Assembly: GCA_903813345.2 (NCBI GenBank)
Contig: CAIIXF020000011.1
Location: 20,071,754 to 20,135,753, forward strand
Reading direction: 5' to 3'
DNA from: Owenia fusiformis
Taxonomy: Eukaryota > Annelida > Polychaeta > Sabellida > Oweniidae
DNA: 64,000 bases
The translations under genes and the position numbers were made by a program. Below the pieces are notes generated by a model, which was not told where the DNA came from, ran no database searches, and worked only from the letters and a program-made list of their open reading frames with translations. Position 1 is the first letter of the stretch, and each line of letters begins with the position of its first letter. Shown here in pieces: positions 1 to 63,370 of the stretch.

Positions 1-285
1 AGTTGTACACCATACATTGCTAGTACAAATATGAATACTATCCTAAAGTTATGGGTTGATACCCTTATTGGTCTCAGAAAAATACAAAAAACAGGAAAAA
101 GATACGCAATTTTTGTCTTGCCAATTTTATATTTGTAGCTTCAAGCACAATATGACAGCTTTAACAGCTCATAGTAGTATTCTAAAAACATTTCTAAGCT
201 ATGTGTGGTATTGTAATACATCTATTTTAGTTATGAAGTACTATTTTGTAATTTTAATATGACTTTATAGTGCCCTACCCCTAGA
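1..285. repeat. Left arm of a long diverged inverted repeat
   Basis: This segment is the diverged reverse complement of about 3315-3612. The match runs from the TAGTGCCCTACCCCT end (near 270-285) to the window edge, and the outer end of this arm may lie outside the window. No coding potential is visible. It could be one terminal repeat of a 3.6-kb DNA transposon, or two copies of a dispersed repeat in opposite orientation. Confidence 0.75.
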
Positions 286-612
286 AAATTGAAGAAAGTG
301 GATGTGGTGAATTTTATCATTTTGCAGCATTAAGTTAGAAACATGTATTGTTAGACACCAAATCAATAAATTCATACCATCATCAAATGTTAGGTGACAT
401 TCTAATTCATTTATTACTAGAATATAGGACTTAAGATATTTTATATGTAAGTTTTCAATTAAGTACATGTATCATAATGAAATCTAGTGTAATCACATAC
501 TAGAGAGGTTGGCATACAGTCTGGACATTGACATAAAGTCTAAACATTATAATCATCAATTGATCTCATTTGAGCAACTAGACTATGGTGGTCATCATGC
601 ACAAGTAATGTA
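286..612. other. No gene seen
   Basis: AT-rich sequence between the left inverted-repeat arm and the TA-flanked MITE. The only open frames are short and have no recognisable protein features. Confidence 0.5.
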
Positions 613-1452
613 CAGTAGAACCTGTTAAGTGGAACACATCTGTAAGTGGAACACCTCCCAAGTGGAACGCCTTTTCAAAGTCCCGTTTTAAAAACCCATT
701 GACTTAATGTTAATTGAACCTCTGTAAGTGGAACACCTCCAAACTTGAACAGTGAACACCCCATATTGAAAAATTAACCTGCTAAGTGGAATAGTCAATT
801 TCCATAGATTTCAATATTGATATATGTAAACAGAATTAATCTCCTTCAATGATATCTGGGTATGAAAACAGGTAATACTGTGATAATTGGCAAATTAGGA
901 TTTTAATGGATTTTAATGGATTAGCCTCCTGTAGAGGTCAACATGTGATGCAACCAATAATTAATTTGATAATCAGCAAATGAGGATTTCATAATATTTT
1001 CATTCAGAAAATTGGATTAACCTCCTGTAGAACTGGACACGTGATGCTACCACTAATTAATATCCCTTGCTGTTTGTTTCAAACTTAATAAGTAAGATTA
1101 AAAATGTCATTTAAAAACAATTGAATTATTAACAGTAGGAGCAAGTCTTTAAAACTTAATTGCCTAATCCTTGTACCTGAGACTGGCACAATTAGGAGGA
1201 TTAAGAATGTCAGAAAACATTTTTGGCAGAATAAGGAGGATTAAGAATGTCAGATACCTTTTTGAGTTAAATAAATGGATTATTAATGGTATATACCTGC
1301 CCTGTAATGAAGGGAGAATCATATTTCCAATGATACATATAAATCCTATATTTGATCTTGTATGTTCCCTGCGAACCCAAAACCTCCGTAAGTGGAACAT
1401 CTTCTAAGTGGAATGCAGAACGGAGAGTGTTCCACTTACACAGGTTCTACTG
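613..1452. mobile_element. 840-bp TA-flanked MITE (mariner/pogo-like)
   Basis: The element begins CAGTAGAACCTGTTAAGTGG and ends with the inverted counterpart CACAGGTTCTACTG. It is flanked by TA on both sides (611-612 and 1453-1454), the target duplication of the Tc1/mariner/pogo superfamily. Variants of AAGTGGAACACCTC recur near both ends. Inside are two direct-repeat pairs: AGGAGGATTAAGAATGTCAG near 1195 and 1234, and a CTCCTGTAGA block near 926 and 1022. No transposase frame remains, so it is non-autonomous. Confidence 0.8.
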
Positions 1453-1454
1453 TA

Positions 1455-3312
1455 TTTACATAATAATTTTATAAAGGAGCATGTAGGTTATCGCAAACAA
1501 CTTCAGACAATTATAACTTGAATTATGATATTTTCTGACCATGAACATGGGTATATCTTTTAGATCTATTCATTATCTTCAAGAAAAGTAAATATAATGA
1601 TTAATCAGACCTAAGTGATATTAAAGGGAATGGCTCAATCAACATACTTTCATACTTTTTACTAAATATGTTGACCTAATTTTTACCAAAGATGCAACCT
1701 TTAATTATATTGTTGAATGCATAATTAGAATATGCTTTGAGACATGTTCTATTTCCTAAGAGGAAAAGTGGATTGCTCCAGGGACTTTAAAGACACTGAA
1801 TTTGGATGACCAAAATGAACTGAAACCAATGGATAGCATGAATCTTTTCAAAGGGGAAATAACATGGGGAACACTAATCTTATGGGAATTCAGTTTTCTT
1901 TTCAAGAGCTATTTGATACATTAAAATAAAGAATAGTAATGCATTAAACATTGTTAAAATGATTGCATTTTTGGTGAAAATGAGGTCAACAACTTTGAAA
2001 AAATATATTGATGGGTTGATTGCTAGTGAAATATCTCCGAGTCCGATTGACTTTATTATCCCTGTATACCCGTCTTCATGGTCAGAAAATAGTCATAATC
2101 AAAGATATAACTGTCTGAAATTGTTTGTGATAACTTACCTGAACCTTTCCAGGTCAAATCAGGAGTGACAAAATTATTTCAACCAAATTTTTGACATGTC
2201 TTCAAATACGATAATATTTTCTTCATAAGATAGAGTGTCACTTGTGAAATTCATTGATTGACCTGAGATCGTACCATATCTTTATGACAGAGAAGCGAAA
2301 TAGCCATATTGAACTTTAATGATGTTTGTTTAATTGTTGTTTGCCACTTTTCGACAATTGTCATTTGGGGGTTTTGGGGGAGGGGTACAATAAGGTTAAA
2401 AAATTCACCTGATTCAGACTATCCTTAAATGAGCACTGATTCACCCGAGAGCATAACTTTTTCAAAACATGTAAGTGTTATTTTGGACCACTCACATTAA
2501 TGTTTCGTCTAATTTTCCCTTAGAGTTTCATCATCATTGTCCAAATCTTTGTTGAGATATTTGAGATATATGAATGTTCATTATTAAAATCTTGCCTTCC
2601 TTTGCAGTTGGAAAAGATTCGGCATTAGGTGTTATAAGTCCCAGAGCACGATAAATAAATATAAAATAACAACAAAATGACATAAAACTGATAGACGTTT
2701 TTCTCCTGTGCGTGTCAGCCTTGGTCTACCAAATTGCTATTCAGTAGGAAGAAACTCATTTTTCAGTTTCTATTTTAATTTCCTGACAAATAGAGCGTAG
2801 CAACTTCTGTTTTAGAGAACAATAGAACAATAGAAAAGATTACTTTACCATCATTTTAATCATCCCACATTGTAGACATAAGAATATGAAGAGAATGATA
2901 AAACCTCTTAAAACACATTTCCTAGGAAACAAATAGTGTCGTATTCTTGTTACTATGGCAACAGAGTTTTTTCTTTTTGTCATTTTTGTCATACAGATTA
3001 CCTATCATACCAGGACCAAATCCTGAAAATTTGAATTCAGTATCTTCATTATTTAGTATCTTAGATATATAGGTTTCTTATAGTGTCCCCTGCAGATTTT
3101 ATCGGATTATATAAGGAAAATGCTCTGAAGAGGGTTGCCCAAGGATGCCACTTAACAGTTGGTATTTTTGAGGTCCCAACCCTCTATTCATGGGAATAGT
3201 TAACCATTGTAAAGCTTCTCATGGTTAACTGACAGAATTGATTGTATCTTCAACTAAGAAGACAATAAAATGTTAAAACCAGAAGAAAACCACACCAACT
3301 TTCTTCTATTTA
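1455..3312. other. No gene seen
   Basis: About 1.9 kb of AT-rich sequence between the MITE and the right arm of the long inverted repeat. I found no convincing frame, RNA gene or repeat. If the flanking arms are terminal repeats, this is the interior of that element, and no transposase can be read in it. Confidence 0.5.
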
Positions 3313-3612
3313 CCAGGGGTAGGGCACTATAAAGTCATATTAAAATTACAAAATAGTACTTCATCATTATAATAATAGATGTATTACAATATCACACATA
3401 GCTTGGGAATGTTGTTAGAATACTACTTTGAGCTGTTTAAGTTATCATATTTTGCTTGAAGCTACAAATATAAAATAAGCAAGAAAAAATGACAAATATT
3501 GCATATTTTTTTCTAATTAATTGTATTTTTCCGAAACCAACAAAGATATCAACCTATAACTTTAGGGTAGTATTCATCTCTGTACTAACAATGTATGCTG
3601 TAGAACTCAGAA
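3313..3612. repeat. Right arm of the long inverted repeat
   Basis: Inverted partner of 1-285. It starts at AGGGGTAGGGCACTATAAAG and runs to about GTACTAACAATGTATGCTG. Substitutions and small indels are scattered throughout, so the pair is old. Confidence 0.75.
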
Positions 3613-32044: not shown

Positions 32045-44248
<12,204 letters not shown>

Positions 44249-48028: not shown

Positions 48029-50608
48029 GACTACAGTCGGTTTCATGGTAAAAATAGCAAGAACTTAACTTCGACATATAAGTGTTACCTGGTGAATGGG
48101 ACCCTCACGTGCCTTCCCAATGGTAGTAAACGAACCCTAGTGTAACTACATCAGCTTATCTTTCCGTCCGATCAACAATAAGTACAGTTATACAAGAAAT
48201 GTAAACGAAGTGAAAATATTCCCCAAAATTTTCCGAAAGGCATTCATTTCCGGAAGTTATGATACGTTATGGTGTCACTACGGTAAATTAATGAAAAAAT
48301 CACAAAATTCAAGTTCTGGTGTGAGGTTCCATATCCATCCGCCAAAAGGTATGACTATATAGTCCATTTAAAAATGTGTGGTTTTGTTCTAAATAACGCC
48401 ATAGTTGGCTTCTTGGGTACCTAGTATGCCACTATTTGGTATCAAAATAAAGAGGATGAGTTCTACTTTCATTTGAATTACGAAAATAGCGATGTAGGTC
48501 AAAATAGTTCCGGCGCGAGCATGTTTACTACGCGTATGCCCGTCATCTCAGAATTGAGGAAATGGTAGCAAACGCGAGTTACAATAAATGGACGCTGATA
48601 TCTCAAAAAGTAACCTGACTCCCTATAATTTAATGTATATCAATCGAAGTCCTATATGAACAGGTACATTTTGGTATATAACACCATGGGGGGTAAGCGT
48701 TTTATAGCTGATCACGAACGCCATTTGTGCAAAGTATTGTTCTGAATTTTCGAATTTGGTGCTGGATTACGGTACTCACACCTCTGGGGTACATATCGCC
48801 ATTTTGAATGAATTAGCCCATACAATGACTATATTTCTGCAATCCCCTATACATAACCTTCATCTTGACACTATATTAATGATGCCCCAGACAAGATAAG
48901 AAACTCAATCAAAATTTTCGCAGATGACACCAAACTCTATGGGGAATGTGTCAGTGCCGAACAGCGAGAGAGCCTTCACCAAGATATTGACACTCTAGTT
49001 AACTGGTCAAATGATTGGCAATTAAAGTTCAATCAAAAAAAAGTGTAAAGTTTTACACTAAGTTGGTAAAAACGTAAACCAACAATACAACCTAGATGGT
49101 ACCATGATAGAGTCAGTGACAGAACAGAAAGACCTAGGATTCACCATAGACAAAGAACTAAAATTCAAACAACACATCAGTCAAACTGCAAAAAAAGCAA
49201 ATAGTAAATTAGGAATTATCAAGAGAAGTTTTAGTCACACCAAGGAGATCATAGTGCCACTCTACAAATCTATGATTAGACCTATATTACACTATGGCAA
49301 CATTATATGGCACCCAAGACTCTTAGAAGAGGAGTGAAAATAGAACAGATACAGAGAAGAGCTACCAAATAATACCAGATTTGAAGAGTAAGCCATATCA
49401 AACGAGGCTTAAAGAGCTAAAGCTCCATTCCCTCTACTACAGACGTAGACGAGGAGACAGGTTTATAAAATTATTAATGGAATTTACACTAAAGAGCATA
49501 GCTCATTTTTTACCAAGGCCACCACAACCACTAGAGGGCACTCCCTGAAAATGTACAAACACCACTGTAACACCACCCTTCGACAGGACACCTTTAGCAA
49601 CTGAATTATAGAAGACTGGAACAGCCACTCAGAGAAGGTAGTGACCGCCCATAGTGTAGATCAGTTTAAAGGGAGACTAGACAAACTTTGGCTAAATTAT
49701 CACTATGATATAGTTTAATATCTATTGCATACATTTAAATTAAGATCTGAGCAACTACAGGACTTTTCAAGACCAATCAGCTCAGAATTTGATGATAATG
49801 ATGATGTGTCTCGTGGTGAAGAAAAGCTATCAAACATTGTCTAAAGAGCAGATTTATCTCCGTAATTCAACTTTTAGCATGGCGACCTTGACCTTGAAAA
49901 ATATAGCCATTTTGGCGATAATAGGTGATTCAAAAGTAAAAATTATTGCCTTTTCGTAGTTTTACTTTGACCAAGCCTAGAAAAAAATTGAAGTGGTAAA
50001 CCTACCCCCATTTTTTAACATTTTTGTTGTCTAGAAGTGTTCCAGATGATATCAAAGTTTAAGAAAATTTGTATATCTAGAAATATTTTCGAAATTAGTG
50101 CCATTATGGTTGGTTTGGGTGCTTTTTTGACCTCATTTTTAGCCCATTTCTATGGTTGCCATGGCAACTATTAGGCTTGGGTAACTATGTCAACTTGATT
50201 TTTCAAGGACATCTGCCTGATAGTAGTTGGGCCAAGTTTCATGGGAAACGGGCCTTATTTGATATGCTGGCAGTGAGGTTGATTGTGGCAAGTAGTAAAA
50301 CGACAAAACAATGGTGGAGTCATACCCGATGCTTGGATGTTCACATTTCACGCATGTTCGGTAATATAACGTATCATAACTTACGGAGATGACATGCCTT
50401 TAGGAAATCTTTTTGGAATATTTTCACTTCGTTTACATTTCTTGTAAAACTGTACTTATTGTTGATCGGACGGAAAGATAAGCTGATGTAGTTACACTAG
50501 GGTTCGTTAGCTACCATTGGGAAGGCACGTGAGGGTCCCATTCATCAGGTAACACTTATATGTCGAAGTTAAGTTCTTGCTATTTTTACCATGAAACCGA
50601 CTGTAGAC
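48029..50608. mobile_element. Inverted-repeat element A, arms about 250 bp
   Basis: About 48039-48285 is the reverse complement of about 50355-50598 (for example ACATATAAGTGTTACCTG near the outer end and AAGTTATGATACGTTAT near the inner end). The outer edges are GACTACAGTC at 48029 and GACTGTAGAC at 50599. It contains the LINE fragment at 48865-49720. It abuts element B directly. Confidence 0.8.
48865..49720 (+). pseudogene. 5'-truncated CR1/Jockey-like LINE reverse transcriptase
   Basis: The copy begins inside the polymerase at FADDTKLY (about 48930), the catalytic box. It continues through LVNWSNDWQLKFN, KDLGFTIDKELKFKQHI, PLYKSMIRPILHYGNIIWHP and a C-terminal block with RGHSLKMYKHHC, IEDWNSH and LDKLW. 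Stops and shifts near 49048, 49336 and 49400 break it. Motif order matches the CR1/Jockey group. It ends near 49720 within element A. Confidence 0.85.
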
Positions 50609-50611
50609 TAT

Positions 50612-53519
50612 GAATCAGTTCATATGGTTAAATTAACGAAAGAATGTGATGTAACCACGTGTCTACTTACCAACTTGTTCTATGTCATCCATCGGACTAG
50701 GTTACATTGTGGAACGCAGCCAAACAGAACACTGAAGGCAACAGGCCAGGTGTTAATGTATGCCCTGATACTTTACTGTTGCTATAAACTACCAGATAAC
50801 CCCAGAGGAGAGTGAAAAACGAGAAAAAGTTGAAATAGAAAGAGCACAGGAAAAAGACTGCATACAAACCGGAAGAATCGAGGAACAGATACTTTCACAA
50901 GCGGTTTAAGTCCACGTCAAACTTAAGTCATTATAAGTCCCTTAAAGCCGCTGTCCAGAAGAAAACAAGAGCAGCCTACTGGACCTACATCGAGAATGTT
51001 ATCTCTGAGCCATCACCTGAATCAACAACTCCAGGGGCTCGAATGACTAAACCTAAGAGGCTATTCTCGTACATCAAAAGTCTGAGGAAAACAGCTGACT
51101 CTGTGGCTCCTTTAAAAAAGGATGGCGTATTGACTTGCGATAACATCGGCAAGGACAATATACTCAATGAACAGTTTCAGTCTGTTTTCTCAAAGGACCC
51201 TAACACCCCCTTGCCAGACAAAGGACATAGCCCTCACCCAACCATGCCGGACATCAACATCACCCAAGAAGGAGTCCGGAAGATGCTTGAAGGCCTGAAC
51301 CCCAACAAGGCTAGTGGCCCAGACTCAATACCATCTCGAGTCTTGAAGGAGCTGGCATCTGACATCGCCATGCCGCTCACACTAATCTTCCAGCAGTCAC
51401 TAGATCAAGGCAAAATACCAGCTGACTGGAAGAAAGCCAAAATATGCCCCGTCTACAAGACCAGTGTCCCTTACCTGCATATGTTGCAAGCTTGCTGAAC
51501 ATCTTCTAGTTAGCAACATGATGCAGTTTCTTGAGACCAATGGGATCCTTTATGACTTGCAACATGGTTTCAGGAGTAAGAGGTCATGTGAAACACAACT
51601 TAATTGTCACCTTTTTCCATGCCCTTGTACTGGCGAATGACACTAATCACCAGACTGATGTCATAGTGATGGACTTTGCAAAGGCATTTGACAAGGTATC
51701 ACATCGCCACCTGCTTTACAAACTCCAATACTACGGTATCAGAGATCAGGCCAACTGCTGGATCAAAGACTTCCTGCAAGCAAGAACCGAAAGAGTTAGT
51801 GTAGATGGAGTGACATCGGATGAGGCAGCTGTAACATCAGGAGTCCCCCAGGGGACTGTCCTCGGTCCGATTCTCTTCCTCATTTACATTAACGACTTAC
51901 CTGATGTCCTGCAACATAGTACCTTGAGGCTTTTTGCAGATGACAGCATCATTTACAGACAAGTTGATTCACCACTCGATGCAGCATTACTACAAGAAGA
52001 CCTTAATGCTGCAGTAGCCTGGGAAAATCAATAGCTGATGCAATTCCACCCAGGAAAGTGTACTGTGCTGTCGGCAACTGGAAGATGGACACCTGCTGTC
52101 TCCATCTACAACATGCAGGGACATGCCCTTAAACAGGTACCGTCAGCAGAATATCTAGGTGTTACAGTGCAGGCAGACCTTAAGTGGAACCAGCATATTG
52201 CTAAATCCATAACCAAGAGTAATCAGCTCCTTGGCATGCTGAGACGTCATTTATAGAAAGCTCCTCAACATACTAAGCAGACTGCATATTTCACCCTGAT
52301 TAGACCAAGACTTGAATATGCAGGCTGTGTCTGGGACCCTTACACATCAACCCAAAAACAAGCTCTGGAGATGACCCAGCAAAGAGCAGCACGGTATGTC
52401 ATGAATGACTTCAACCATGTTAGCTCTGTCGGTGTTATGCTGTCCAAGCTATAATGGGAGTCTCTGGAGCAGAGAAGACAACAACGGCTCACCATGCTCT
52501 ATAAAATCAACAATAGCCTAGTTGGAATTCCCAAGGACCAATATCTTGAACCCCCCTCCCACAATAGACCCAGACGATTACAAGTAACTAACAGCCAAGC
52601 CTTTGTCCGCCACAGATACAACAAAGATGTCACTTTGCAGTCTTTCTTCCAAAATACAATCAGGGAATGGAACTCACTTCCAGAATCAATAGTGACAGCG
52701 GGAACATTAGAAGGCTGGGTTCTTACTACCAAAACCCCATTCCTTAACTCTTACTGTTGTGTAACTGTTTTTAAACCGATTTTAACTTTACCTTTTACTT
52801 TAACACTGTTTTTATCTTTTACTATGCATACTAACCCGCGATGAAGTAATCAGTAAATGATTGAATCAGCATATCGATCTTGATCTTAGCCAAATTTTGG
52901 GAAATTTAGATCGTCCATTTTGCAAACTCACATGACTGACCCGTGACACGTGTCTGATCACGTGACTAGTTACTGTATTGATCATGTGACTTAATGACGT
53001 GTCATCCAACCATGTCTTCAAGGAAAACGGAAGTAAATATTTTGGAAAATGTTTTCCGAGCATTTGCTACTGATTATAGAAGGCCCAATTAGGCAACGAA
53101 TGAAACTGCTATAAATTGTATTTCGTGCCTAACAGGCGCAGTACGCAATGAAAGAAACTGCAAAATTGTATTTTTAGTCTGCTTATTGATCTGTTGATTC
53201 ATAAAGACCTGAAATGATGCATTCAAATAAGACCACCTCCTAAATGAAAACACTACACATTAGGTGGTGAAAAACAACGAATTAAAGTTGAAAGATCGCA
53301 ACGTTCGCAACTTTGTTCAATTCCGGAAATCTCCAAGGGGCTGCAAATGGGAAATTATTTAGATTTAGATTTTATAACCTCAGAATACTGCCTTCAGTGT
53401 CGTGTTTGGCTGAGTTCCACAATGTAACCTAGTCCGATGGATGACATAGAACAAGCTGGTAAGTAGACACGTGGTTACATCACATTCTTTCGTTATTTTA
53501 ACCATATGAACTGGTTCAC
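50612..53519. mobile_element. Inverted-repeat element B, arms about 140 bp
   Basis: About 50612-50752 pairs with 53378-53519 (for example CAGTTCATATGGTTAAA, GTAACCACGTGTCTACTTAC and GCCAAACA..ACACTGAAGG). A GACTGTAGTC word just outside, at 53534, mirrors GACTACAGTC at 48029, so A and B may form one compound unit. The interior is a decayed LINE. Confidence 0.75.
50800..52850 (+). pseudogene. CR1/Jockey-like LINE with near-complete reverse transcriptase
   Basis: From about 50880 the linker reads AYWTYIENVI then KRLFSYIKSLRK. The polymerase follows with NPNKASGPDSIPSRVLKEL (about 51298), IPADWKKAKICPVYK, a frameshift at about 51470-51530, LQHGFRSKRSCETQL, IVMDFAKAFDKVSH (about 51664), SGVPQGTVLGPILFLIYIND (about 51838) and LFADDSIIY (about 51930). 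The thumb and C-terminal parts extend to about 52735. Stops at 52032, 52254 and 52452 and the frameshift inactivate it. It is better preserved than the copies at 7.4 and 48.9 kb. No endonuclease domain is visible upstream. Confidence 0.9.
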
Positions 53520-53558
53520 AGAATAAAAAAAATGACTGTAGTCTAGATCTAATAGGGT

Positions 53559-53800: not shown

Positions 53801-54465
53801 CAAGATTGCAGTAAAAAATCCCATTGACGACCATTATACGGTGACCACACCGTTTTTGAGATAACTGAATCTGGAGAGAGCTACCACTGTAAAGCTACCT
53901 GTTTCAGAAAATTATTCTGCTCTACATAGTCTCAAAAATCACTCTGCCATCTCTAAAAATTCTGTTTCTAACCAAACTTGTAAATGTTTCCTAATAGATT
54001 AGTTATCGAGAATAGACCTTGATTCATTTATCAAACACTTGATGGCGCTGCGACGGGACAGAAAAGGAGAAAAAGCTTTTTTATACAGAAAACCAAATAA
54101 CCAACGGTAACCGCTAGTATCCCTACTCTGGACTATATTCAAAGATGAAAGAAAGTGAAGTCTTCTTTTACTAGGCTAGATCTAAAGCACAAGCTTATTT
54201 TTCAAGTTTTCGGTCGTCTATTACTCTCCTTACTTTTTCCCATTGGCTGTGGGAAGTTCTACCAAAAGCTGATCATATACTGTACTAGATATTGAAAATA
54301 AAATTACATTCCATATCTTCATGGCTGTTATCTGATTGGTCAAGTCGCGAAAATAAGGCTTATCGCATTTACACTTTTAGATCTATACTAATGTTCTGAG
54401 ATTGAGGACACCCAGAGAACCCCACAGAGGACTTAATACAACTTCTTGTGCAAGTTGTGGTTTAT
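53801..54465. other. No gene seen
   Basis: Intergenic sequence between the 233-bp MITE and the large nested foldback. No supportable feature. Confidence 0.45.
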
Positions 54466-54610
54466 TGTGAGGTTATTCTGTCTCTTTCAAAGTCTGACTG
54501 ATCTCATTAAACAGCCTTTGCTCCCCCCTTATTAGCTGCTAGAGGATCGTTACAGCTTGAACTGAAATCAGCTGATTATTTTTATATCTCCAAATGTTCT
54601 CTACGTAACT

Positions 54611-54825
54611 CAGGCCCGTAGCCAGGATTTGCCAAGGGGGGTTCAGTTTTAAAAAATTTCCAGGGGGGTTCACATTTGACAATTTTGGTCCAAATATGGC
54701 TAAAATCACTTGAGAAATGCTCAAAATGGTGAAAAACTGCATGATTTTGAAAGAATTTTTGGCCAGGGTGGGGGGTTTGCCCGAACTCTTCGAACCCCCC
54801 CCCCGACCCTCTGGCTACGGGCCTG
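54611..54825. mobile_element. 215-bp MITE with CAGGCCCGTAGCCAG termini
   Basis: Perfect 15-bp inverted termini CAGGCCCGTAGCCAG and CTGGCTACGGGCCTG are flanked by TAACT at 54606-54610 and 54826-54830. The opposite arm of the host foldback, near 55110-55140, shows the uninterrupted site, which confirms the 5-bp duplication. The interior is rich in G and C runs. Confidence 0.9.
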
Positions 54826-56401
54826 TAACTGTCCTTGGTTTGCGAAAGTTTGTAAGTTATCAGCTGCTTTTGTCGATCTGGACTTGTCTTTATCGCTGAG
54901 TGGATATTTTCTACCAAGAAATCGAAATGGTGGATTTGAAAGAAATTTAAAGGAAGCAGTGTTCAAAATCCGAATGTTTTCTGAATGAACTTTAGAAATT
55001 GCTGAACTTCATTAGGAAATCACCTTACGCTAACTTAGCGAATTCCGTAAAAACTAACATTTTGATTTGACAAGTCCTGATCGACACAGAAGCAGCTGAT
55101 AACTTACAGTCTTTCGCAATCAGAACACTGTTATGTAGAGAACATTTGCACTGGGGAGTATCGTGATGCAACAACACCGTGTTGTTGCATCAAGATGGCC
55201 AGACTTCCGGTGATAGATTTTCGTACGATATTTTGTTTCCCCAATTAAACCCATTTCTAGGACGAGTTGCTCAATAACCATACACGTGCAGTTAGCGCAC
55301 GGTCTATATTTAAAGAAACTGTCATTAGTATACATGTACCATCACCAAGAAGCAATAAGTTCACGGTTTTAGTTCCTCACTATTGATGCAACAACACCAA
55401 ACCGAAGATGCAACAACACTCCTCTAGATTTGAGCAATGATGCAGCAACACCAATTAATAGTGTACTTTCAGAAGACCATAAATCTCGAGAGGAACAGAT
55501 TTTTAAATGCTACTATTGCAACACCGTTACCCATTACCCATATTTGCGTTCTTCTCAAGGCATTCAAGATCCTCTATATGTATTTTCAAAAATTTATACT
55601 TTTAAATATTTTAATGTACTGGACGTTGTTCTATAACATAGTTCAATCGCCTTTAACATGGCAAGCTTTAGTTTATTTTCATAAACCACTGTTCCATAGA
55701 TTGATGACCCTGACTCCAGTTAGTATCATTCAAAATGGTGGACAAACATCTTTCGTTCTCGGTAAACATGATGAGCTATTGGAAATTATCTGTCACCCAT
55801 CTGTGGAACAGTGATAAACTAGTAGATGTACGTTACCACTGTTTATCAAATTATAATTAAAACAGTTTAACTGTGACATTCGTGAGCTTATGTTGATGGG
55901 ATGATTGCTTCATCTATGATATAATATGATATGATTCTTTATTTCCTCCAATTTGGAGAGCCAACGTGTAAAAACGTCTAATTGACTTTATTAGAGAGGC
56001 CGTTTAGTTACACGTTTAATGGAAATCTTGCACGACGCACGTGTAGAATCATTGCTCTCTTTGGATTCCTTCTCTCCGACAGAGTAAAAAGGTAAACAAA
56101 AGTGATAAGATTAAGGGCCCAAAAAGGTAAATTGATAGGGGTACAGTTATCCCAGATATCCCGGGCCCTCGGGAAATGTCATATTGTCTCTCGGAATAAA
56201 ACCAATATTGAATCCCTCTCAGTAAATAACCTTTATATAATAGCATTGTATAACTGCAATATCATTAAACCAACACTCATCCTATACAACTCTTGAGAAC
56301 GATGTACAACTCCTGGATAGCGTAAACTCCTGAGCAGCGTATACAACTCTTCAACTTGATATATGACATCATACTTTGGGTGGGATAACAAAGGATATAC
56401 A

Positions 56402-57163
56402 ATATACAATTGTCGACCTCTCTTGAGGTCAACTGGCAAAATTGTATACAGATACTGTAATCCTTGAAAGTTCGGAGGTCGAGGTCAACAGAACTCTCAG
56501 GGTTTACTGTTGAGGAATACACTTTGGCCAGTTGACCGAATAGAGAGGTTCTTCTTCGGACAACAATTGTTTGTTAGTCCGAAGAATATAATAATTTGAA
56601 GGATATAATATACAATTGTAGACCTCTCTTAAGGTCAACTGGCAAAATTGTATACCGATACTGTAAACCTTGAAAGTACTGTTGATCAAGACCAGAGGTC
56701 GAGGACACTTTTGCCAGTTGACCGAAAAGAGAGGTTAACAATTGTTCTGTTAGTCCAAATAATATAATAATTGGACGAATATATAATCGAATATCACGTG
56801 AACATATTTGATAAGTAAAGGTATCATATTTTAGCAAAAAATCCCCAAACCGTCGAATACTTGTAATTTTTTACACAACTTATTTTTTCAAAATTAAAAA
56901 AATTTCAACATTAAAAAAACAATTTTTCAAAAATAGGGGTCAACAGTACCTAGTAGTGGTCAACAGTTTACAATTGTTGACCTCCCCAGAGGTCAACCGG
57001 CAAAATTGTATACCGAGACTGTAAACCGAAAAACTACTGTTGACAGAGACCGAAGGTCGAGGTCAACAGTAGTTTCAAGGTTTACATTCGAGGTATATAA
57101 TTTTGACGGTTGATCGAATGGAGAGGTCTACAATTGTTTTGTTAGTCCGAGTAAACTAATAAT
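56402..57163. repeat. Three tandem hairpin units of about 165-200 bp
   Basis: Units at about 56402-56592, 56605-56770 and 56965-57163 each open with CAATTGTNGACCTC, then GAGGTCAACTGGCAAAATTG, and close with CCAGTTGACCGAA (or a variant), GAGAGGT and CAATTGTT. Each unit is therefore self-complementary. All lie inside the CACTGGGG element. Confidence 0.85.
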
Positions 57164-57403
57164 ACACATATAGACGACAATCATGGATTCATTTCACAAC
57201 CTTTTAGAAAATTTGGAGACAGTGCAAGTAGCTTAACTCTGTATTTGGCACATCACAGCGTACTCGTTAGTGAATTAATGTTAATTTTAAGTTTCTATTT
57301 GTATTTTTGCTATACTTGTCGCCTACTAAAGTCATTTTCATCAACGTTTACAAAATGTCCGTCTTCCATGTTTTTTTGTTACGTCATGAAACTTTTTTTC
57401 AGA

Positions 57404-57600
57404 AGTAGCGGTCAACAGTACCAAGTAGCGGTCAACAGTACCTAGTAGCGGTCAACAGTACATAATTTTGACTCATAATCACCCAATCAGAATCGAGTAT
57501 TTCAGTTGAGGTACTAACAATACATTTTGTTGACCGCTCATCAACCAATCAGAATTGAGTATTTCAATTGAGGTACTAACAACACAAAATGACTGATATC
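57404..57600 (+). repeat. 18-bp tandem triplet and 62-bp direct repeat
   Basis: AGTAGCGGTCAACAGTAC occurs three times in a row at 57404-57460. It is followed by two copies, about 61 bp apart, of CCAATCAGAATNGAGTATTT with GAGGTACTAACAA. The word GTCAACAGTA also occurs in and around the hairpin units upstream. Confidence 0.8.
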
Positions 57601-58234
57601 TGTTGTCTTTCCAAAATTATATTAGTTATTTGTAAGCAATTTCCATACGGTAAATCAAGGGCATTTAATTTAGAAAATGTATAATCTCTATTTTTCAGAT
57701 ACAATATCAATGAGATTGCCTCCCGGGGATTCTGTACTTTATTTAGTTTGCCTTGTATATCCTTTTAACTTTGATATAGACAAAGAAACCAAACAAAATA
57801 CGTTTCTTTCATGGACCACTGACCAACGCGTTTTATTCATGTCTCGACACACCTGTAAACAGAACATAAAACAGTTTCTCTTGTTGTTCAATGATATGTT
57901 CAATTATAGGCGTTTTTGCATCAGCACATTGGTGTTGTTGCATCATCGATAAGAAACAGAGTGGTGTTAGTTGCATCAATAGTGAGGAATTAAAACCACG
58001 AATTTATCGCTTCTTGATGATGCTACATGTATACCAATGATAGTTTTTTAAAATATAGATCATGCGCTAACTGCATGTGTATGATTATTGAGCAACTCGT
58101 CCTAGAAATGGGTGTAAATTGGGAAAACAAAACATCGTACGAAAATCTATCACCGGAAGTCTGGCCATCTTGATGCAACAACACGGTGTTGTTGCATCAC
58201 GATACCCCCCAGTGATTTGGAGATATAAATTTAA

Positions 58235-58836
58235 AGGGGTATTCCTTGCCAGACCATCTCTCTCCTAATATGGTAGCTATAACCATATACATACTTTGCA
58301 AGTTTATTAAAAAACAGAAAAATGTTTTGAAATGGTCAATATTGATCACTTAAAAATGTAGTGCTCAATTCCAGTAGGCTGCCATCTTTTAAAATTTCAC
58401 TCAGGAAGTGATGTCATCGACTCTCAACTTTGCATATAACATTATGTAAGGAGCTATTAGAATTACTAAACCAGCTGAATATTTTTTTCAATTTGGTCTA
58501 TGATTAAAATCCTTTTGATGATCTCTTCTTTAGTTCTAAGTTGACAACTCAATGAAAATATTTTTACACAGAAGATAAGGGCTTCTTGTTTAGAAGTGAT
58601 TTTGTACTTCTTTCCTATTCTGTAATAGACAAGGTTATAACAGGTGAGAGTCGATGACATCACTTCCTGAAAGAAATCTGAAAAGATGGCAGCTTACTGG
58701 GAATGAGTACTACATTTTTAAATGATCAATATTGACCATATGAAAACATTTTCCCGTGTTTTGCTAAATATGTAAAGTATATATATGATTGTAGCTACCA
58801 TATCAGGAGAGAAATAGTCTGGCAAGGAATGTTCCT
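58235..58836. mobile_element. 602-bp MITE inserted at TTAA
   Basis: Arms of about 190 bp (58235-58428 and 58644-58836) begin AGGGGTATTCCTTGCCAGAC and pair through GAAGTGATGTCATCGACTC. TTAA flanks both sides (58231-58234 and 58837-58840). The partner arm of the host foldback (near 54570-54580) lacks the insertion. TTAA targeting is the hallmark of piggyBac and Kolobok transposases. Confidence 0.9.
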
Positions 58837-59122
58837 TTAAGCAGTGATTTTAGTTAAAGTCGTAACGATTCTCTATTGGTTAAGAGGGGTGAGCAAAGGC
58901 TGTTCTATCAGATTAGTCAGCCTTTGAAAGAGGTAATTGAATGAATAAAGAAAAGTAGCCTTTAGGACAAGAGGGTAGACAAATTGAATATACTAGTTAT
59001 CCATAAATTGTTAAGAATATCAACAAGTTAATAATCTAGTTTGCATATTATGTGCAAAAGTGAAAGATTTAGACCATGTGTGGAATGATTAATGTTTATC
59101 TGAAAATGAAAATAGTATGCCA

Positions 59123-62236: not shown

Positions 62237-62280
62237 GTCCGTCTGTCTGTCTGTCCCTTCGTCTGTCTGTCCGTCCGTCA
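62237..62280 (+). repeat. GTCT/GTCC microsatellite
   Basis: A run of GTCTGTCC-type tetranucleotides just before the first satellite unit. It is slightly degenerate. Confidence 0.8.
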
Positions 62281-63370
62281 ACAATAGTGGCATGTTTTAA
62301 AACCTCTGTCGATAGGATTCCTGTTTTAAGTTATTTCTGTTCAACATCAATACAGAAAACTCCCCTATGACTCCTGGTTCAAAAGCTCGCCTATTTTCAA
62401 AATGGCCGTCACTTTTGTCTTGCGAAATTCACTTTTGACCCATTTCCTAGCTTTACAAATAATTTCAGGTGTCCTACATTGTAAAAATCCATGTCAATGT
62501 AAAGGGTAGATATATGAAATAATTTTGTTACAAAAAATCAGCAGAAAATTATATCCATTTTTTTTATATTCAGCCATTTTAGTTAGCATTGATTTGTCTA
62601 TCTGACTCGCGAAATCCACTTTCCGTCAATAACAGTGGCACATTTTAAAACCTCTGTCGATAGGATTCCTGTTTTAAGTTATTTCTGTTCAACATCAATA
62701 CAGAAAACTCCCCTATGACTCTTGGTTCAAAAGTTCGCCTATTTTCAAAATGGCTGCCATTTTTGTCTTGCGAAATTCACTTTTGACCCATTTCCTAGCT
62801 TTACAAATAATTTCAAGTGTCCTACATTGTAAAAATCCATGTCTATGTAAAGAGTAGATGTATGAAATAATTTTGTTATGAAAAATCAGCGAAAAATTAT
62901 ATCCATTTTTTTTTTCAGCCATTATAGTTAACATTGATTTGTCCATCTGTCTCGCAAAATTCACTTTTGGACCATTTACCTTAAACCCTCTGTCGATAGG
63001 ATTCCAGTTTCAAGTTATTTTTGTTCAACATCAATAAAAAAAACTCCCCTATGACTCTTGGTTCAAAAGCTTGCCTGATTTCAAAATGGTCGCCATTTTT
63101 GTCTCGCGAAATTCAATTTTGGCCCATTTCCTAGCTTTACAAATAATTTCAGGTGTCTTGCATTGCAAAAAGCCATGTCACTTAAGAGTAGTTGTATGAT
63201 ATAATTTTGTTACAAATAATTGGCAAAAGATTATATCCGTTTTTTTCAGCCATTTTTTAACATCGATTTGTCCATCTGTCTCTCAGTCAGTCCAAAATAG
63301 TGGCAAGTGGCTTGAAATAATTTTGTTACAAAAATCAGCAAAAAATTATATCTGTTTTTTTTCTGTCACC
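62281..63370. repeat. Satellite-like tandem repeat, about 340 bp, three-plus units
   Basis: CCTCTGTCGATAGGATTCC recurs at 62303, 62651 and 62987, each followed by CTCCCCTATGACTC, TTCAAAATGG and TTTCCTAGCTTTACAAATAA. A partial fourth unit follows from about 63290. Period is about 336-348 bp. Open frames inside, for example 62713-62964, are by-products. Confidence 0.9.

Follow-up and report, generated by a model that had tools for sequence, protein, structure and literature searches.

How do separate pieces of DNA, spread over 54482-58932 of a 64-kb window of the Owenia fusiformis genome (the whole stretch that we analysed), come to pair with one another in inverted orientation across long intervals? 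Repeat finding returned these pieces as 54482-54529 with 58885-58932, 54576-54595 with 58215-58234, 54591-54609 with 55130-55148, 54826-54873 with 55086-55133, and 54871-54888 with 55069-55086. The original prediction was that they are parts of a single foldback element that was later interrupted by three transposons, each of whose insertion sites is preserved in the opposite arm. One has thus to ask whether the pieces form one repeat, what interrupts it, what the repeat is, and in which order the parts arrived.

Anatomy of the interrupted repeat

When the three inserts and one copy of each of their duplications are removed from 54482-58932, a 554-bp inverted repeat is left. Its arms are 187 nt each and align with 158 identities, 25 mismatches and 8 gap columns (158 of the 183 ungapped columns are identical), and they enclose 180 unpaired nucleotides (54889-55068). 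The continuous inverted repeat that had been predicted is therefore present: aligned to its own reverse complement, a procedure that counts both halves, the remainder scores 372. The score did not exceed 44 in any of 200 single-base shuffles, which, like the other single-base controls used here, preserve base but not dinucleotide content. Its arms fall a little short of the 200 bp or more that had been expected.

On the forward strand, the outer part of the left arm (54482-54610) ends with the first copy of TAACT and pairs with 58932-58841, 58234-58220 and 55148-55130. The second copy of TAACT and the inner part of the same arm (54826-54888) pair with 55069-55127. The right arm, on the same strand, lies in three parts: an inner part (55069-55148), which takes part in the arm pairing and ends with the first copy of ATTTG; a short piece (58215-58234), made of the second copy of ATTTG, 11 nt of arm and the first copy of TTAA, which pairs with 54576-54595; and an outer part (58837-58932), which begins with the second copy of TTAA and continues the pairing as far as 54482 in the left arm.

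We rejected a single palindrome running through all 554 bp, because the centre pairs no better than shuffles: its palindrome is not significant, with 86-101 of 500 shuffles scoring as well over five cut points, and it aligns only weakly with itself. No tandem repeats were found in the arms. Near the outer arm ends, two stretches of 33 nt (54488-54520 and 58894-58926) also match in direct orientation (73%), which makes either arm end a rough palindrome in itself.

Boundaries of the inserts

The boundaries were also recovered by an alignment that was blind to their position. The arm regions were picked by us and the gap positions left free: 54440-54890, with insert 1 present, was aligned to the reverse complement of 55060-58980, with inserts 2 and 3 present. 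The same three large gaps, and no other large ones, were obtained at every gap-opening cost. Scores were 159.6, 139.6, 119.6 and 101.6 at costs of 16, 20, 24 and 28, respectively; when the left stretch was shuffled by single bases, 100 times at each cost, the maxima were 33.8, 32, 32 and 32. For insert 2 the gap is exactly 55149-58219, and for inserts 1 and 3 it is displaced from the duplications by 1 nt and about 5 nt. When gaps were made cheap, the alignment broke into many short pieces that did not locate the inserts, though its score of 243 was above that of all 60 block shuffles, which reached 142 at most.

We then scored, with insert 3 already removed, all deletions whose ends lie at most 25 nt from the annotated ends of insert 2. 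The top score was tied in exactly six placements, from 55144-58214 to 55149-58219, the registers that duplication of the 5-bp ATTTG necessarily produces. The scan of insert 1 gave three tied placements, none of which coincides with the annotated ends; this is also the join that carries the 2-nt indel. That of insert 3 was loose, with the best placement at 58235-58837 and the next one a single point lower.

The insertion sites had been said to be intact in the partner arm. They are uninterrupted at all three places, but letter-exact at ATTTG only: the partner of TTAA is ATAA, a difference of 1 nt, and the partner of TAACT is TAACAGT, with the 2-nt indel at the join. Such changes are expected, because the arms differ at 25 of their 183 ungapped positions. 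Gaps at the joins had been named as evidence against the model. Join 1 does have a gap of 2 nt, which is small relative to the 8 gap columns of the arms as a whole, and joins 2 and 3 are gapless, the nearest gap to join 3 being one of 1 nt at a distance of 4 nt.

The three inserts

All three inserts and their duplications were found where they had been predicted. Insert 1 (54611-54825) is a MITE-like element of 215 bp with inverted ends, flanked by TAACT at 54606-54610 and 54826-54830, and the blind alignment recovered it within 1 nt. Its terminal 15 bases, CAGGCCCGTAGCCAG, are identical at both ends in inverted orientation. We take these ends to be hAT-like. The 5 bp of TAACT do not fit the 8-bp duplications of hAT elements, and we assign insert 1 to no superfamily. 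Among prokaryotic genome contigs, one 20-mer match to an end of insert 1 was found in a Comamonadaceae metagenome-assembled genome, inside an open reading frame in DNA of 64% G+C. No second inverted end accompanies it at up to 3 mismatches, nor does anything else there resemble the window at E 1e-3; we regard it as a chance 20-mer.

Insert 2 (55149-58214) is an element of 3,066 bp with inverted repeats, ends CACTGGGG, and copies of ATTTG at 55144-55148 and 58215-58219. The repeats, of 271 and 283 nt, align with 249 identities, 22 mismatches and 12 gap columns. A motif, GATGCAACAACAC, occurs near the ends in both orientations; the element contains seven exact copies of it and two inexact ones, with 1 and 2 mismatches respectively, and the remainder of the window contains one copy with 2 mismatches. 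Repeat finding showed three direct copies of a hairpin-forming unit of about 185-217 bp in the interior (56391-57163). Two of these copies are adjacent, and the units are perhaps tandem repeats carried by the transposon. A 20-bp unit is also present three times in the core, at 57403-57461.

We assign insert 2 to no superfamily either. EnSpm/CACTA elements have a CACTA terminus and duplicate 2-3 bp, and we set them aside, as insert 2 has a CACTG terminus and a 5-bp duplication. Our literature search found no description of a 5-bp hAT/CACTG group. Transib and ProtoRAG elements are closer, since they share with insert 2 the 5-bp duplication and a terminal CAC (PMC8289069). They differ in their termini, CACTATG and CACAGTG in the same source, where insert 2 has CACTGGG at both ends, and also in that insert 2 has 271/283-nt inverted repeats and no transposase domain that we could find. 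The source further describes their 5-bp duplications as GC-biased (PMC8289069); ATTTG is not GC-rich, and a single copy cannot show a bias. It would be tempting to see in insert 2 an undescribed group of DNA transposons, defined by a 5-bp duplication, CACTGGGG ends, repeats of about 280 nt with GATGCAACAACAC in both directions and a core of repeated hairpins, and possibly moved by a Transib/RAG-like transposase. We consider this very doubtful.

Insert 3 (58235-58836) is an element of 602 bp, Kolobok/T2-MITE-like, with TTAA on both flanks (58231-58234 and 58837-58840). Its inverted repeats, 203 and 200 nt long, start at the 7th base and align with 172 identities, 28 mismatches and 3 gap columns. 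T2-MITEs, which have been linked to Kolobok, are described in a study on Xenopus by a TTAA duplication and terminal AGGRR (PMC6004289). Insert 3 has the TTAA duplication, AGGRR at both ends (AGGGG and AGGAA), inverted repeats and no transposase domain found, and its ends fit those of Kolobok/T2-MITE elements by this end rule. We rejected piggyBac, whose ends carry a CC[C/T]T motif (PMC2872659), since insert 3 ends in AGGGG and AGGAA.

Searches for domains and further copies

We searched Pfam with 22 translated stretches from inserts 2 and 3 (the three longest per frame, over 35 amino acids) and found no transposase domain among them. Six matches had E values up to 1, all of them below the curated cut-offs, and the 4 stretches of insert 3 had no match, neither to a Kolobok (THAP-DDE) transposase nor to any other domain. 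Rfam gave no match in the 64-kb window.

No second copy of the foldback or of inserts 1-3 was found in the window at E 1e-3. Searches for the end sequences elsewhere in the window, with up to 4 mismatches, gave four weak scattered matches for insert 1, two for the foldback and none for inserts 2 and 3. Parts of the three inserts and of a foldback arm had no exact-pattern match in viral contigs, which carries little weight given that the set was viral. In the literature, the letters of the element ends matched only works titled on primer design, ADAR binding, insect esterases and tomato loci.

Nature of the foldback

The locus is probably best explained by a 554-bp transposon of foldback or MITE type that was present first, and into which three unrelated non-autonomous DNA transposons then inserted. 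Under this explanation, the inverted-repeat element, with 187-nt arms and a 180-nt loop, would itself be non-autonomous. One of the later elements would have entered its left arm and two its right arm. Each presumably relied on a transposase supplied from elsewhere, and the staggered cut of that enzyme would have led to the duplications of 5, 5 and 4 bp. Both the action of transposases in trans and the status of the foldback as a transposon are inferred.

The outer unit has what characterizes foldback elements, i.e., long inverted arms (187 nt) around a loop (180 nt). In this it resembles the Mutator-Foldback elements, such as Tm1 (PMC3169594). The same paper reports a Tm1 element that carries a nested inverted-repeat element of 936 bp with a 7-bp duplication (PMC3169594), and gives 8-10 bp for the target-site duplication of Tm1 itself (PMC3169594). 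For our foldback we found no sound target-site duplication of this kind: the best candidate, GAGGTTATT/GAGGTAATT, has 9 nt with 1 mismatch and lies partly inside the right arm, and 23 of 500 random placements gave a match of the same length or longer.

This last result can also be read in favor of another origin, in which the palindrome arose by inverted duplication of local DNA and was later hit by the same three inserts. Such an origin would leave the nesting order unchanged. It fits the observation that a target-site duplication has not been established for the palindrome and that the window has no other copy of it. The dimensions of the palindrome argue against it, since MITEs and foldback elements are shaped like these arms of 187 nt around a loop of 180 nt, even if the resemblance is only a general one. 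We regard a local inverted duplication as rather unlikely and a foldback or MITE-type transposon as the more probable account.

Order of insertion

The anatomy, the duplications and the uninterrupted partner arm can be read directly from the locus, and they place the foldback before the inserts. This is the simplest account, because each interruption has its own inverted ends, a direct duplication and an uninterrupted counterpart in the partner arm. We hold this nesting order, taken alone, to be almost certain. The original prediction held the order to be clear, which is right for the foldback relative to all three inserts; the order among the inserts is not given by nesting.

Divergence between the arms of each element adds some information. 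Jukes-Cantor distances were 0.151 (SE 0.031) for the foldback, 0.155 (SE 0.030) for insert 3 and 0.086 (SE 0.019) for insert 2; the ends of insert 1 are too short for an estimate. The arms of the foldback are no more diverged than those of insert 3, and divergence hence provides no independent support for the order of these two. On the assumption that each element started with identical arms, insert 2 is probably younger than both the foldback and insert 3.

The opposite order would require that the inserts are older than the palindrome, i.e., that an arm carrying them was copied in inverted orientation, after which precise excision removed them from the copies. Loss of a TTAA element in this manner is conceivable in principle, as piggyBac transposases usually excise precisely at TTAA (PMC2872659). 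Yet, three independent losses distributed over both arms would be needed, two of them at 5-bp duplications, and there is no footprint at the partner of ATTTG. We consider this course of events highly improbable. Finally, pairing by chance or composition in AT-rich DNA, which could be invoked given the 35.7% G+C of the window and the weak self-alignment of the foldback centre, is refuted for the arms by observed scores above all 200 shuffles and all 100 at each of the four gap costs, and as an account of the arms has next to no probability, while it holds for the 180-nt centre.

Surrounding window

Several other features of the window were recorded. Two inverted repeats adjoin each other: one pairs 48031-48270 with 50366-50606 at 95.0% identity, the other 50608-50740 with 53389-53521 at 94.7%. 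By eye we saw no target duplication at either. The second one (50608-53521) encloses broken reverse-transcriptase frames (RVT_1, E 9e-18, 51522-52034). An inverted repeat of about 310 nt (1-308 with 3289-3607, 84%) begins at the window edge, and 1-3607 is possibly another large element with terminal inverted repeats. Within this span, at 1473-2148, an inverted repeat of 84 nt (84.5%) surrounds 509 nt, possibly another nested case.

The window also matches fibronectin type III, at 33091-33519 (E 2.4e-6), with similar stretches seen by eye further along. Kinase-like stretches were noted, by eye only, at 41574-42937; Pfam found nothing in 41574-42341. The span 33091-42937 is perhaps an intron-split gene for an animal receptor kinase. 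The stretch 41655-41867 is repeated at 41877-42083 (94%), and a tandem array of three copies of a 348-bp unit lies at 62274-63285.

Discussion

Having a foldback first and the inserts later, the locus is a neat but unexceptional example of transposon nesting, good for teaching, and it changes no biological picture. Reading relative age from one element inserted in another is standard practice and is what TinT does (PMC3014933), and the insertions into the foldback give relative ages in the same manner. The difference is that the empty-site reference is here the foldback's own other arm.

The opposite arm of the foldback is thus its own empty-site control, and a single locus suffices to establish the ends and duplications of the inserts, with no need for another genome. 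That a partner arm serves as internal control for three different inserts helps the annotation of poorly studied genomes.
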